IMG/VR virus record: IMGVR_UViG_3300027721_000052
Coordinates: 1 to 30,280 of that record
Reading direction: 5' to 3' (one strand)
Length of the DNA: 30,280 nt
Source of the DNA: a virus
Part shown: positions 7,809 through 30,280 of the stretch, piece by piece
Position numbering within the stretch: the first letter of the stretch is position 1
Layout: the number at the start of each line of letters is the position of its first letter
The notes under the pieces: model-generated
Database searches by the model: none
What the model was told of the DNA's origin: nothing
The model's input: the letters and a program-made list of their open reading frames with translations, nothing else
Translations under genes and position numbers: made by a program

Positions 7809-8479
7809 CAGGTCACCGCAGGAGATGCCGCAGTGGCGCTACCGAACACTGACTGGCCAGTGACAAGCGCCACGCCGGAACGGTTCAGGAACCCAGTCTC
7901 TACAGCGGCACCATTGGCGACACCAGCAGTAGCAGTGACGGTTTTCGTGCCAAAGCCAGTGAACGCCGGACCAGCCCCTGCATCCCTGGACCCACCTTGT
8001 CCAGCCATCAGGATAGGCTGAGCGGCGTAGGGGGCAGTTGACGGATACAAAGTCCCTGCCGGGGTGCCGTTGCCATCAGGGCCAGTACCGTCGACCAGTG
8101 TGGTCTTGCCCCCACCAATCGCGGTCAGAATAGCGGTCGTTGCAGACTGCATGGCTGACGCAGAAGTGAAGTAGCTGATACCGGGAGTGTAGTCGTCGTT
8201 GAACCCAACATCCTTGATAGATTGCGGGGCGGTCAAGCCAAAGATAGGCGGACTACCGAATCCGATGCCAGTCTGCAGAGCCCCGGTCGTGATGTTGGCC
8301 GGATCTGCAACGTAGGTCGGTACTCCGTCAGTGTAGACGCTACCAGCGCCGCCTTCTATTTTCTTGGCGTCAAAAGGAGAGCCTTTCGGGCCGCTGAAGG
8401 GATTGATTATTACAGACAAGCCAATAGACGGATTGGCAGCATTCTGAACAGGGGTTGAGCCAGGAAGTGCAGCGGGCAT
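7808..8479 (-). CDS. Possible capsid decoration or head-associated protein
   Basis: The gene starts at the ATG at 8479 (MPAALPGSTPVQNAANPS..., 223 aa), five bases after a strong AGGAGG site. The open frame upstream of it is only the opposite reading of the capsid region. The protein is rich in Gly, Ala, Thr, Ser and Pro with few charged residues and no signal peptide. The C-terminal third (about 175-223) contains TKTVTATAGVANG and NRSGVALVTGQSVFG, a beta-rich pattern that could form a small barrel. It has its own promoter and a terminator separates it from the capsid gene, so it may need a different dose. Decoration (cement) or head fibre are the likeliest roles by position; no family is recognised. 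Confidence 0.75.
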   Translation of the reverse strand: MPAALPGSTPVQNAANPSIGLSVIINPFSGPKGSPFDAKKIEGGAGSVYTDGVPTYVADPANITTGALQTGIGFGSPPIFGLTAPQSIKDVGFNDDYTPGISYFTSASAMQSATTAILTAIGGGKTTLVDGTGPDGNGTPAGTLYPSTAPYAAQPILMAGQGGSRDAGAGPAFTGFGTKTVTATAGVANGAAVETGFLNRSGVALVTGQSVFGSATAASPAVT

Positions 8480-27694: not shown

Positions 27695-27725
27695 CAAAAG
27701 AGTATAACAGGATGAAAAATAGTTG

Positions 27726-27754
27726 TTGTTTTCTATGCTGGAGAGTGTTAGTAT
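27726..27754 (+). promoter_or_regulatory. Sigma-70-like promoter for the repeat-containing protein
   Basis: -35 TTGTTT (27726-27731), 17-bp spacer, extended -10 TGT-TAGTAT (27749-27754). The AGCTCT after the -10, and AGAGGAA before the ATG, match the promoter at 22.2 kb. A small CTGCC/GGCAG hairpin lies in the leader. Confidence 0.6.
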
Positions 27755-27800
27755 AGCTCTACGCTGCCAAAGGGGCAGTCCAACCACAAGAGGAAAGAAA

Positions 27801-28388
27801 ATGCAAATTGATACAGTACTGAGTGACGCGGCTGTAGGTTCCAAGTCCAAGAAAGAACGCGCTAAGCCCATCGAGATTCCGGGCAAGACCTATCCCCAGT
27901 TCAACGAAGACGGCACCAAGATGCTGGACTCTGAGGGCAAGGAAGTTTGGGGGCCGGTCAAAATGACCAAACCTAAGAAGGCCAAGGTAGTTGAGTACCA
28001 GAAGGACGAAAACGGCAACGACATCCTGGACGAGGCTGGCAACCCCATCCCCGTTAAGAAAGTCCGCGCCAAGAAGCCGGTGGAGTACCAGTTGGACGAA
28101 GCTGGCAACCAGATCCTGGACGAGGCTGGCAACCCCATCCCCGTTAAGAAGGCTCGTGGTCCGGTTGTCAATCGTGTGCCCAGCCAGGAGAGCGCTGTCA
28201 TCCAGGTTACCGAAGAGCAAGCTGTCAAAATCGCAAAGTATACCGGCGCTCGTGGCCAGTATGCAGCGATGCTGCGTGGCGGCATGACCATCGGTGAGTA
28301 CCTGCAAGAAGGTGGCGATCGTGGCTTCCTGCGCTTCTATGTCAAAGACGGTGCCTGCACTATTGACGTAGCAACCCCTTCAGCGTAA
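27801..28388 (+). CDS. Repeat-containing protein of unknown function, probably abundant
   Basis: The ATG at 27801 (MQIDTVLSDAAVGSKSKKER..., 195 aa) follows AGAGGAAAG; the frame upstream lies in promoter sequence. Residues 1-60 are Lys-rich. Residues about 65-118 contain two copies of a Pro/Lys/Asn unit with ILDEAGNPIPVKK. The C-terminal 70 residues are an ordered domain (VIQVTEEQAVKIAKYTGARG, MLRGGMTIGEYLQEGG, FLRFYVKDGACTIDV). Its own promoter and terminator suggest high expression, as for DNA-binding or host-shutoff proteins. The C-terminal domain looks like a nucleic-acid-binding or small regulatory fold, but I do not recognise it. Confidence 0.75.
   Translation: MQIDTVLSDAAVGSKSKKERAKPIEIPGKTYPQFNEDGTKMLDSEGKEVWGPVKMTKPKKAKVVEYQKDENGNDILDEAGNPIPVKKVRAKKPVEYQLDEAGNQILDEAGNPIPVKKARGPVVNRVPSQESAVIQVTEEQAVKIAKYTGARGQYAAMLRGGMTIGEYLQEGGDRGFLRFYVKDGACTIDVATPSA
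27992..28150 (+). repeat. 90-bp-period direct repeat in the coding region
   Basis: 38 bases are identical at 28023-28060 and 28113-28150, and weaker matches extend the unit back to 27992 and 28082. The period of 90 bp keeps the frame (30 residues). The near-perfect identity suggests recent duplication. Confidence 0.9.
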
Positions 28389-28405
28389 CTCAACACGTTG
28401 TACCA

Positions 28406-28435
28406 GTGACCCGCTCCGGCGGGTCACTTCATTTT
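28406..28435 (+). terminator. Rho-independent terminator after the repeat protein
   Basis: A perfect 9-bp stem, GTGACCCGC / GCGGGTCAC with loop TCCG, is followed by TTCATTTT. It lies 17 bp after the stop codon and 15 bp before the glycosyltransferase-like ATG. Confidence 0.9.
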
Positions 28436-28449
28436 CGGAGACTGAATCA

Positions 28450-29217
28450 ATGAGAATAGTGATCATTACACGCGGGCGAGTAGGCAATCTCCACACACTG
28501 AAAAGCATCCCCTGGGAGTGGCAGAACAGCACCGTCATACTTTGCCCAGAGAGCGAAGTAGAACAGCACGAGCGGCTGCACCCCGACATACTGGTGATGC
28601 CAGAGGGGCCAGAAACTCTCAACTACAGCCAGAAGTTCCACAATATAGTCAACGGCAAGTATCCCGAGCTTGGGCGCAGAATACTGATTATGGACGACGA
28701 CCTCCGCTTCTCTAAGCGGGAGGGCAAGTCACTAGTTTCCGCCACGCCCGCAGACATCAATCTGGGCCTTCTCAAGCTAGAATCAATGCTGTGGGATTAC
28801 CCGCTTGTCGGTCTGCATCCAAGGGCCATGGGAAACAACGCCCCGGAGGGGATCAAAGAATGCACCCGCATCAACGCGATGCAGGGGGTAGCTCTTGACA
28901 AGATTAACCCCGTCAAGCTAGACCACTGGCCCATCCTGGCAGACATGGTGCTGAACCTTTGGCTCCTGACCAGCGGCTGCAAGACCGCCATCTGGTGCGA
29001 CTTATTTTGGGATCAAGTTGGCGCATCCAACGCCCCCGGAGGGTGCAGTCTGCACCGCACCGCCGAGCAGCAGGCCGAGGCTGTCCTGGGGCTGAAGGCC
29101 ATGTTCCCTGAGTACGTTACCGTCAAGGAAAAGGAAGTAAAGAAGGGCTGGTTCGGGGGCAAGCGACTCGATTTCGTAGTACAGTGGAAGCGGGCATACG
29201 AGGGCAGTAAAGTATGA
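28450..29217 (+). CDS. GT-A-fold glycosyltransferase candidate of the DNA-modification cluster
   Basis: A 255-residue protein, ribosome site CGGAG. It starts MRIVIITRGRVGNLHTLKSI, a Rossmann-type first strand with the RGR..N..TL pattern. It then has TVILCPESEVEQH (about 28-40) and LIMDDDLRFSKRE (about 79-91), whose DDD is the DxD metal/nucleotide-sugar site of GT-A enzymes. Later parts (VGLHPRAMG, INAMQGVALDKINP, HWPILADMVLNLWLLTSG, then GGCSLHRTAEQQAEA) form the acceptor half. This resembles the TET-associated glycosyltransferase type described in phages that modify bases. It is coupled by ATGA to the transferase gene that follows. The sugar donor and target base cannot be told; a protein or lipid target is the alternative. 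Confidence 0.65.
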   Translation: MRIVIITRGRVGNLHTLKSIPWEWQNSTVILCPESEVEQHERLHPDILVMPEGPETLNYSQKFHNIVNGKYPELGRRILIMDDDLRFSKREGKSLVSATPADINLGLLKLESMLWDYPLVGLHPRAMGNNAPEGIKECTRINAMQGVALDKINPVKLDHWPILADMVLNLWLLTSGCKTAIWCDLFWDQVGASNAPGGCSLHRTAEQQAEAVLGLKAMFPEYVTVKEKEVKKGWFGGKRLDFVVQWKRAYEGSKV

Positions 29218-29984
29218 ACCAAGAATATGTAGACTTACTGATGTACTGGATCAACGAGCGGGAAGCCATTCGGGAGCGTAGATTGCAACACGAAGGCCCC
29301 CGCCTCTGGACGAACGACCCCATCCTGCAGAAGTACCACTTTTGCAACATCTACCGGCAGTACGACCGGGGCACTCAGGATATCTACAAGGCGCGGATGG
29401 GGCTAGACATTCCCACTGTAGAGCTGCCCCAGTTCTTCACCGCTGCCCGGCTCTTTAACAAGGCCGACACACTTGTGGACTATTGGCTCAGCGGGCCGCA
29501 GGATATCAAGCATCAGCAGAGCTTAGGCAAGAAGGTGTTCAATACTGCCTATGTCGTAAGTACCTGCGGAAAGACTATGAACAAGGTAGACTATGTGCAC
29601 GACGTTGTAGAGCAGGTGCGGAACCGCGCCATCAGCCCCCTGAGCTGTGAGTCAGCCTTCAACGACCTCCGTAAGGTTGACGGTCTAGGCAGCTTTCTCA
29701 GCGGACAGATAATAGCCGACCTCAAGTACACTACCTATCTGGAAGAGGCCAAAGACTGGTGGACGTTTGCAGTCATGGGGCCGGGCAGCAAGAAGGGGCT
29801 CGACCATATCTTCTATGGTGGTACTACAGAACGGAATTTCAAAAATAGGTTAGAAGAACTGCATGAGTACGTTCGCCCACACGTCCCGAAAATGCACGCC
29901 CAAGATTTGCAGAACTGCCTTTGCGAGTTCAGCAAGTATGTCAGATATAAGGAGAACTTACCCGGTCGTAGGAGGCCATACTGA
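29214..29984 (+). CDS. Amino acid:DNA transferase / aGPT-PPlase-like thymine hypermodification enzyme
   Basis: A 256-residue, mostly helical protein coupled on both sides (ATGA, TGATG). The opening DLLMYWINEREAIRERRLQH followed by PRLWTNDPILQKYHFCNIYR and QYDRGTQ (W32, T33, D35, N45, R48, D51, R52) is the signature I know for the alpha-glutamyl/putrescinyl-thymine pyrophosphorylase family. Those enzymes displace pyrophosphate from 5-pyrophosphoryloxymethyl-uracil in DNA with an amino acid or amine. A later segment CESAFNDLRKVDGLGSFLSGQIIADLKY (about 143-170) has a helix-hairpin-helix-like LxxVxGxGxF motif. Family assignment rests on pattern memory, but the flanking TS-like gene supports it well. 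Confidence 0.75.
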   Translation: MNQEYVDLLMYWINEREAIRERRLQHEGPRLWTNDPILQKYHFCNIYRQYDRGTQDIYKARMGLDIPTVELPQFFTAARLFNKADTLVDYWLSGPQDIKHQQSLGKKVFNTAYVVSTCGKTMNKVDYVHDVVEQVRNRAISPLSCESAFNDLRKVDGLGSFLSGQIIADLKYTTYLEEAKDWWTFAVMGPGSKKGLDHIFYGGTTERNFKNRLEELHEYVRPHVPKMHAQDLQNCLCEFSKYVRYKENLPGRRRPY

Positions 29985-30280
29985 TGTTTCATGTACGCGC
30001 AAGTGATGTAAACGATTTGTACGCAGAACTTCTTCACATGGTGAAACGGTACGGTCACGAGGAAGATACTCGCAACGGCAAGGCGAGGGCGCTCCCTGGC
30101 CCCCTTCTGGTGGAGGTGGCTATGCCTGAGCACCGAGTACTTTTCTGCCCCACGCGAGACGCCAACCCGTTCTTCCATCTTATGGAGGCGGTGTGGATGA
30201 TAGCGGGGCGCAACGATGTAGCGTTCCCTGCTCAGTACACTGGCGGAATCGCGCAGTACAGCGACGATGGGGTAGTGTTC
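29984..30280 (+). CDS. Thymidylate synthase / dUMP hydroxymethylase homologue (N-terminal part)
   Basis: ATG at 29984 overlaps the previous stop as TGATG, with GGAGG upstream. The frame runs to the window end (99 residues seen). It has RASDVNDLYAELLHMVKRYG, then RVLFCPTRDANPFFHLMEAV followed by WMIAGRNDVAFPAQYTGGIAQYSDDGVVF. The NPFFHLMEAVWM.AG pattern and the SDDG end fit phage thymidylate synthase-fold proteins, which include dUMP 5-hydroxymethylases making the precursor of 5-hydroxymethyluracil. The catalytic Cys lies beyond the window, so the exact reaction is not decidable. Next to the aGPT-PPlase-like gene, hydroxymethylation of dUMP is more likely than plain TMP synthesis. Confidence 0.8.
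   Translation, partial: MFHVRASDVNDLYAELLHMVKRYGHEEDTRNGKARALPGPLLVEVAMPEHRVLFCPTRDANPFFHLMEAVWMIAGRNDVAFPAQYTGGIAQYSDDGVVF

Follow-up and report, generated by a model that had tools for sequence, protein, structure and literature searches.

A probable kinase-free thymine hypermodification cassette pairing a candidate GT-A glycosyltransferase with a PF18723 protein at the edge of a viral record

Three overlapping genes at the right edge of a viral record raise the question of which DNA base the virus modifies and what it attaches to that base. The window, meaning the whole stretch of DNA analyzed, is the entire viral record (30,280 bases), and reading rightward from it was possible via relatives only. 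An initial annotation had proposed a thymine hypermodification cassette made up of a GT-A glycosyltransferase candidate, an aGPT-PPlase/amino acid:DNA transferase-like protein, and a thymidylate synthase (TS)-fold protein, and had predicted a 5-hmdU DNA kinase immediately beyond the right end of the window. The features concerned are the following.

28405..28428, + strand: terminator-like hairpin (10-bp stem, 4-nt loop, T-rich tail), found by scan and in the sequence
28450..29217, + strand: TAGT-family GT-A glycosyltransferase (GT, PF20691), 255 aa, assigned from Pfam, PHROG, an AF2 model, and invariant D82, D83, and D84
29214..29984, + strand: HEL (PF18723 protein, formerly aGPT-Pplase1), 256 aa, all-helical, assigned from Pfam and an AF2 model
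29984..30280, + strand: TS-fold protein, N-terminal 99 residues, cut by the contig end, a predicted deoxyuridylate hydroxymethylase, assigned from PHROG 5131

The three genes are real, with open reading frames at these coordinates and the overlaps that had been claimed. GT and HEL share 4 bases at an ATGA junction (GT stop TGA at 29215-29217, HEL ATG at 29214), and HEL and the TS-fold gene share 1 base at a TGATG junction (HEL stop TGA at 29982-29984, TS-like ATG at 29984). HMM searches of the three proteins returned matches to PF20691, PF18723, and PHROG 5131, all far beyond chance. The hairpin sits just 5' of the GT start and may act as a divider between the cassette and the upstream gene; relative L005 has a hairpin with a T-rich tail at the same place before GT (~7957-7980), unlike the window's in sequence, and terminator-like hairpins in the scanned 1 kb were near chance in number (2 found versus 1.2 expected). 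The gene at 27723-28388 encodes a 221-aa protein whose internal repeats are near-exact (LDEAGNPIPVKK); relatives carry counterparts in the same location, and the protein gave no significant family match.

The assignment of the first protein as a GT-A glycosyltransferase candidate was borne out. GT matched PF20691 (TAGT) with an E value of 3.5e-8 and 34.1 bits, above the curated Pfam cut-off of 27.5, and PHROG 842 with an E value of 1.2e-27. Its residues 82-84 form a DDD metal/sugar-nucleotide motif, invariant in 57 homologues, and its AF2 model (pLDDT 95) has GT-A structural neighbours with Z scores of up to 14.6.

HEL, by comparison with PF18723 (HMUDK_hel; E value, 4.6e-37; 128.3 bits; curated cut-off, 25), belongs to a family other than the one first proposed. 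Pfam splits the old aGPT-PPlase clades in two: PF18724 bears the name "amino acid:DNA transferase" and PF18723 the name "5-hmdU DNA kinase, helical domain". The former includes PaMx11 gp46 (PDB 8z2m, PUGT), named a glycinyltransferase; the latter includes M6 gp55, PaMx11 gp50, and the window HEL. Because M6, PaMx11, and Pam3 each carry PF18723 alongside PF18724 and encode a P-loop kinase in a gene of its own immediately upstream of PF18723, HEL is neither the transferase nor the kinase of such systems. The initial annotation, which had likened it to the amino acid:DNA transferase of phiW-14, SP10, ViI, and M6, therefore named the wrong family. The kinase role implied by the Pfam name was rejected as well: a P-loop is absent (checked in a relative's HEL protein), and elsewhere the kinase has its own gene or forms a domain of its own.

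The neighbors of HEL were compared across 195 non-duplicate loci. The viral scans, with HEL and GT alignments as queries, had yielded 128 loci, and these were supplemented from cultured phages and cellular genomes. A viral-contig scan with the single HEL sequence returned nothing; the alignment query did retrieve loci. The gene adjacent to HEL usually encodes either an M6-like P-loop kinase or a glycosyltransferase, the latter from any of several families. When the scan used HEL alone (the 80 loci nearest the window protein, near-duplicates included, so that the counts are not population frequencies), the gene directly upstream encoded a GT-A enzyme (32 loci), GTX (9), GTB1 (6), a third GT-B-like protein (1), a kinase (10), or another protein (18), and was truncated in 4. 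GTB1 has a weak Glyco_transf_4 match. GTX and the L069 protein have no family match and are guessed to be glycosyltransferases from motifs; when PDB sequences were searched with profiles of HEL, GT, and GTX, no relative turned up. A GT-A gene and a kinase occur together in none of the non-duplicate HEL loci. Only one locus (L045:8127-9604) combines a kinase with a GTX gene; the two adjoin each other and lie away from HEL.

In Bacillus phage Goe26, PF18748 (the kinase family) and PF18723 are joined in one 636-aa protein, and this kinase-HEL fusion ties HEL physically to its adjoining transferase. In a quickly built HEL tree (94 sequences), the partner class changed ~20 times; ~8 of these changes were between a kinase and any glycosyltransferase, with 4 of the latter forced by well-supported branches; on such branches alone, the forced changes numbered 8 for GT-A, 4 for the kinase, and 4 for GTB1. 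Tree neighbors with unlike partners include L068 (kinase) and L088 (GT-A, with a radical-SAM-like open reading frame between GT and HEL), and L023 (GT-A) and L025 (GTB1). Two further arrangements were seen. In Microbacterium phage Golden (L142:1353-2820), a different P-loop kinase (PF18751, Ploopntkinase3), annotated as a terminase small subunit, lies directly before HEL. In Alphaproteobacteria (L167-L169, L171, L174, and L192; for example, Hyphomicrobium sp. CS1BSMeth3), HEL is followed directly by a TS homologue with no recognized adjoining transferase gene.

These pairings suggest, tentatively, that HEL serves as a swappable subunit for presenting bases. It would bind DNA, flip out the hydroxymethylated base, and present it to the adjoining O-transferase, a P-loop kinase in M6-type phages and a glycosyltransferase in the window phage. 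The proposal draws on the gene pairing, the replacement of partners, the natural kinase-HEL fusion, and a predicted fold like that of base-flipping HhH DNA glycosylases. The AF2 model of HEL (pLDDT 96) is all-helical, and VIA-align placed PUGT (8z2m) first (Z score, 9.3; 209 residues; 4.4 Å), followed mainly by HhH DNA glycosylases at moderate Z scores (6 to 9), with a Foldseek E value of 0.11 at best; identity in the structural alignments to both groups is 7 to 14%. Profile comparisons matched neither HEL to PF18724 proteins nor GTX to GTB1, and we therefore do not claim common ancestry from sequence. By eye, the HEL segment DGLGSFLSGQ (residues 156-165) together with D181, which is nearly invariant, resembles an HhH motif with its downstream Asp.

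The same protein could itself be catalytic, activating or altering 5-hmdU or removing bases, with GT acting on the product or independently. HEL has invariant residues (R16, R48, D51, R79, D169, C237-E238, and K241), and since these include Asp, Lys, and Cys-Glu and the best fold match is a DNA transferase, it is perhaps an enzyme and not an adaptor. Distant PF18723-like proteins lie on Patescibacteria and archaeal chromosomes (L190-L208, L163, and L185; genome contigs), mostly without a hydroxymethylase, glycosyltransferase, or kinase nearby; because they stand alone, an activity of HEL's own is possible, and these partnerless homologues are the main warning of one. We nevertheless regard a catalytic HEL as unlikely: its partners are several unrelated O-transferases that use different donors, have been replaced many times, and are in one case fused to it, and a single reaction of HEL's own that suits them all is harder to imagine.

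Whether a kinase lies beyond the contig end was assessed in relatives. The environmental relatives L005 (41.5-kb contig; GT 69% identical) and L006 (GT 65% identical) share the gene order GT, HEL, TS, HD nucleotidase (YfbR-like), and a small protein, the last with a weak DUF1599 match in L005. PF18748 was absent from the window and from the records of both relatives. A third relative, contig G004 (39,291 bp; GT 63% identical), ends in 143-base repeats (142/143 bases identical) and, being terminally redundant, is probably a complete genome; it gave no match to PF18748 or PF18724 and has no open reading frame of ≥60 aa with a canonical Walker A motif. That motif was present in all six tested kinases beside or fused to HEL; the scan misses the variant P-loop (GSSGKS) of the window's own D5-like primase, and a non-canonical kinase would escape it. 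More widely, PF18748 was found in none of 44 whole HEL records, nearly all with a detected glycosyltransferase, and in 6/6 kinase-positive controls. The kinase that had been expected just to the right of the window is thus missing there in L005 and L006 and from the apparently complete G004, so that a 5-hmdU DNA kinase is probably not part of the window system. Searching phage genomes for near-identical matches to the right-hand two thirds of the window returned nothing.

The amino acid:DNA transferase shows a similar distribution. Its HMM matched 16 of 31 kinase loci versus 0 of 108 glycosyltransferase loci (the loci are not independent), and Pfam PF18724 was found in no whole record bearing a glycosyltransferase (positive controls, M6 and L056). 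Since several kinase-positive records likewise have no PF18724, its absence is weaker evidence than that of the kinase. Both absences bear on the classical M6/ViI/phiW-14 pathway, in which a kinase outside the window would act, HEL would transfer an amino acid or polyamine, and GT would add a sugar or be incidental. HEL does come from the old aGPT-PPlase grouping, with the PaMx11 glycinyltransferase as its closest structural match, and the TS homologue shares a PHROG with M6-type enzymes. That pathway is nonetheless very unlikely here, with no kinase in the relatives, the true transferase family missing from the glycosyltransferase phages, and HEL accompanying the kinase in the very phages that have a separate PF18724 protein.

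Which base is likely to be hydroxymethylated was judged from residues of the TS-fold proteins. The window fragment matched PHROG 5131 (E value, 6.2e-31), keeps the E58-type Glu, and lacks Trp80/Trp83 of TS (mapped on full-length homologues); because the gene breaks off ahead of the catalytic Cys and of the N177 position, these two residues were read in relatives only. In an alignment that included the CMP-hydroxymethylase MilA and one true TS, the TS homologues retain the catalytic Cys, Arg, and Glu, with Trp80/Trp83 replaced in all, as in MilA. The L005 enzyme falls far under the NCBIfam cut-offs for true TS. At the counterpart of E. coli TS residue N177, Asn goes with uracil and Asp with cytosine; Asn occupies it in 66/69 GT-A loci (the close relatives included), 18/18 kinase loci, and 16/16 loci with other glycosyltransferases. 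A hydroxymethylase-type enzyme, as opposed to a true dTMP synthase, accordingly fits the residues of the relatives. The only loci with the cytosine-type Asp (LPYD) are L134, L136, and L137, where HEL and GT-A lie beside the TS homologue; judging from this residue, the pair may also work there in a 5-hydroxymethylcytosine system, so that it is not strictly a thymine system.

For the window, a cytosine system, in which the hydroxymethylase would make 5-hmdCMP and GT would make glycosyl-5-hmdC as in T4 with thymine untouched, is highly improbable. In its favor, PHROG 842 is named for a T-even HMC glucosyltransferase, TAGT is named for TET-associated cytosine systems, and three relatives carry Asp; against it, the close relatives and nearly all GT-A loci have the Asn of the kinase-type (thymine) loci.

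We consider it reasonably probable that the cassette represents a kinase-free branch of thymine hypermodification, with glycosylated 5-hydroxymethyluracil, a base-J-like nucleobase, as its product and HEL as a shared DNA-presenting partner. Judging from its residues, the TS-fold enzyme would make 5-hydroxymethyl-dUMP and not dTMP. By analogy with M6-like clusters, kinases would lift this nucleotide to the triphosphate, the phage polymerase would insert 5-hmdU, and the downstream HD nucleotidase of the relatives would trim the competing pool. After replication, the GT-A enzyme would use a host sugar nucleotide as donor and place its sugar on the 5-hydroxymethyl oxygen, giving glycosylated 5-hmdU, chemically like base J, with HEL presenting the base. 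In vitro, T4 beta-glucosyltransferase can add glucose to 5-hmdU within DNA oligomers (PMC4111573), so that glycosylation of 5-hmdU is chemically feasible. The cassette first proposed thus survives in its GT-A enzyme, its aGPT-PPlase-superfamily protein, and its hydroxymethylase-type TS, and loses its aminoacyl transferase and its kinase. With neither PF18724 nor a kinase, and with HEL a PF18723 protein, glycosylated 5-hydroxymethyluracil is a likelier product than the aminoacyl or putrescinyl thymine foreseen at first.

The arrangement has partial counterparts in known systems. Thymidine hypermodification in M6 and PaMx11 shares with it the TS-fold hydroxymethylase, HEL just before TS, and the HD nucleotidase after; in the window type, GT replaces the P-loop kinase (PF18748-like) in position, and no PF18724 transferase, radical SAM, or Nmad5 genes were found. 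Glucosylation of 5-hydroxymethylcytosine in T4 combines a hydroxymethylase with a DNA glycosyltransferase acting on a hydroxymethylpyrimidine, as the window type would, whereas the window type has a uracil-type hydroxymethylase, a different glycosyltransferase family, and a HEL partner. Trypanosome base J (glucosyl-5-hydroxymethyluracil) matches the predicted product chemistry, but there the hydroxymethyl group is introduced by a TET/JBP dioxygenase on DNA, as opposed to a TS homologue on the nucleotide, and the window type has a glycosyltransferase of a different family as well as the HEL protein; the TET/JBP dioxygenase family PF12851 was matched in 0/14 records in a search in which no positive control responded. 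Among cultured phages, Brevibacterium phage LuckyBarnes (gp38-gp41) has adjoining TS, TAGT glycosyltransferase, and PF18723 genes; it differs from the window in having two glycosyltransferase genes and TS first, and its sequence is very distant.

A 2019 statement describes sugar on thymine of the base-J-like kind as unreported in phages, and a search of the literature to 2026, which several key pathway papers fell outside, found no later report of glycosylated thymine in phages. We put forward, as a possibility short of an even chance, that PF18723 is a general, interchangeable base-presenting subunit for 5-hydroxymethylpyrimidine modifiers, onto which phages have often swapped kinases as well as glycosyltransferases from at least two, and probably four, unrelated families, and that base-J-like thymine occurs in a large unsampled group of phages. 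If true, a base-J-like nucleobase would be common in environmental phages, PF18723, named after the kinase, would be misnamed, and the glycosyltransferases would form a set of new 5-hmdU DNA glycosyltransferases usable as tools. It would also raise the question of how transferases unrelated to one another gain access to a base within duplex DNA, and whether they do so through one shared base-flipping partner.
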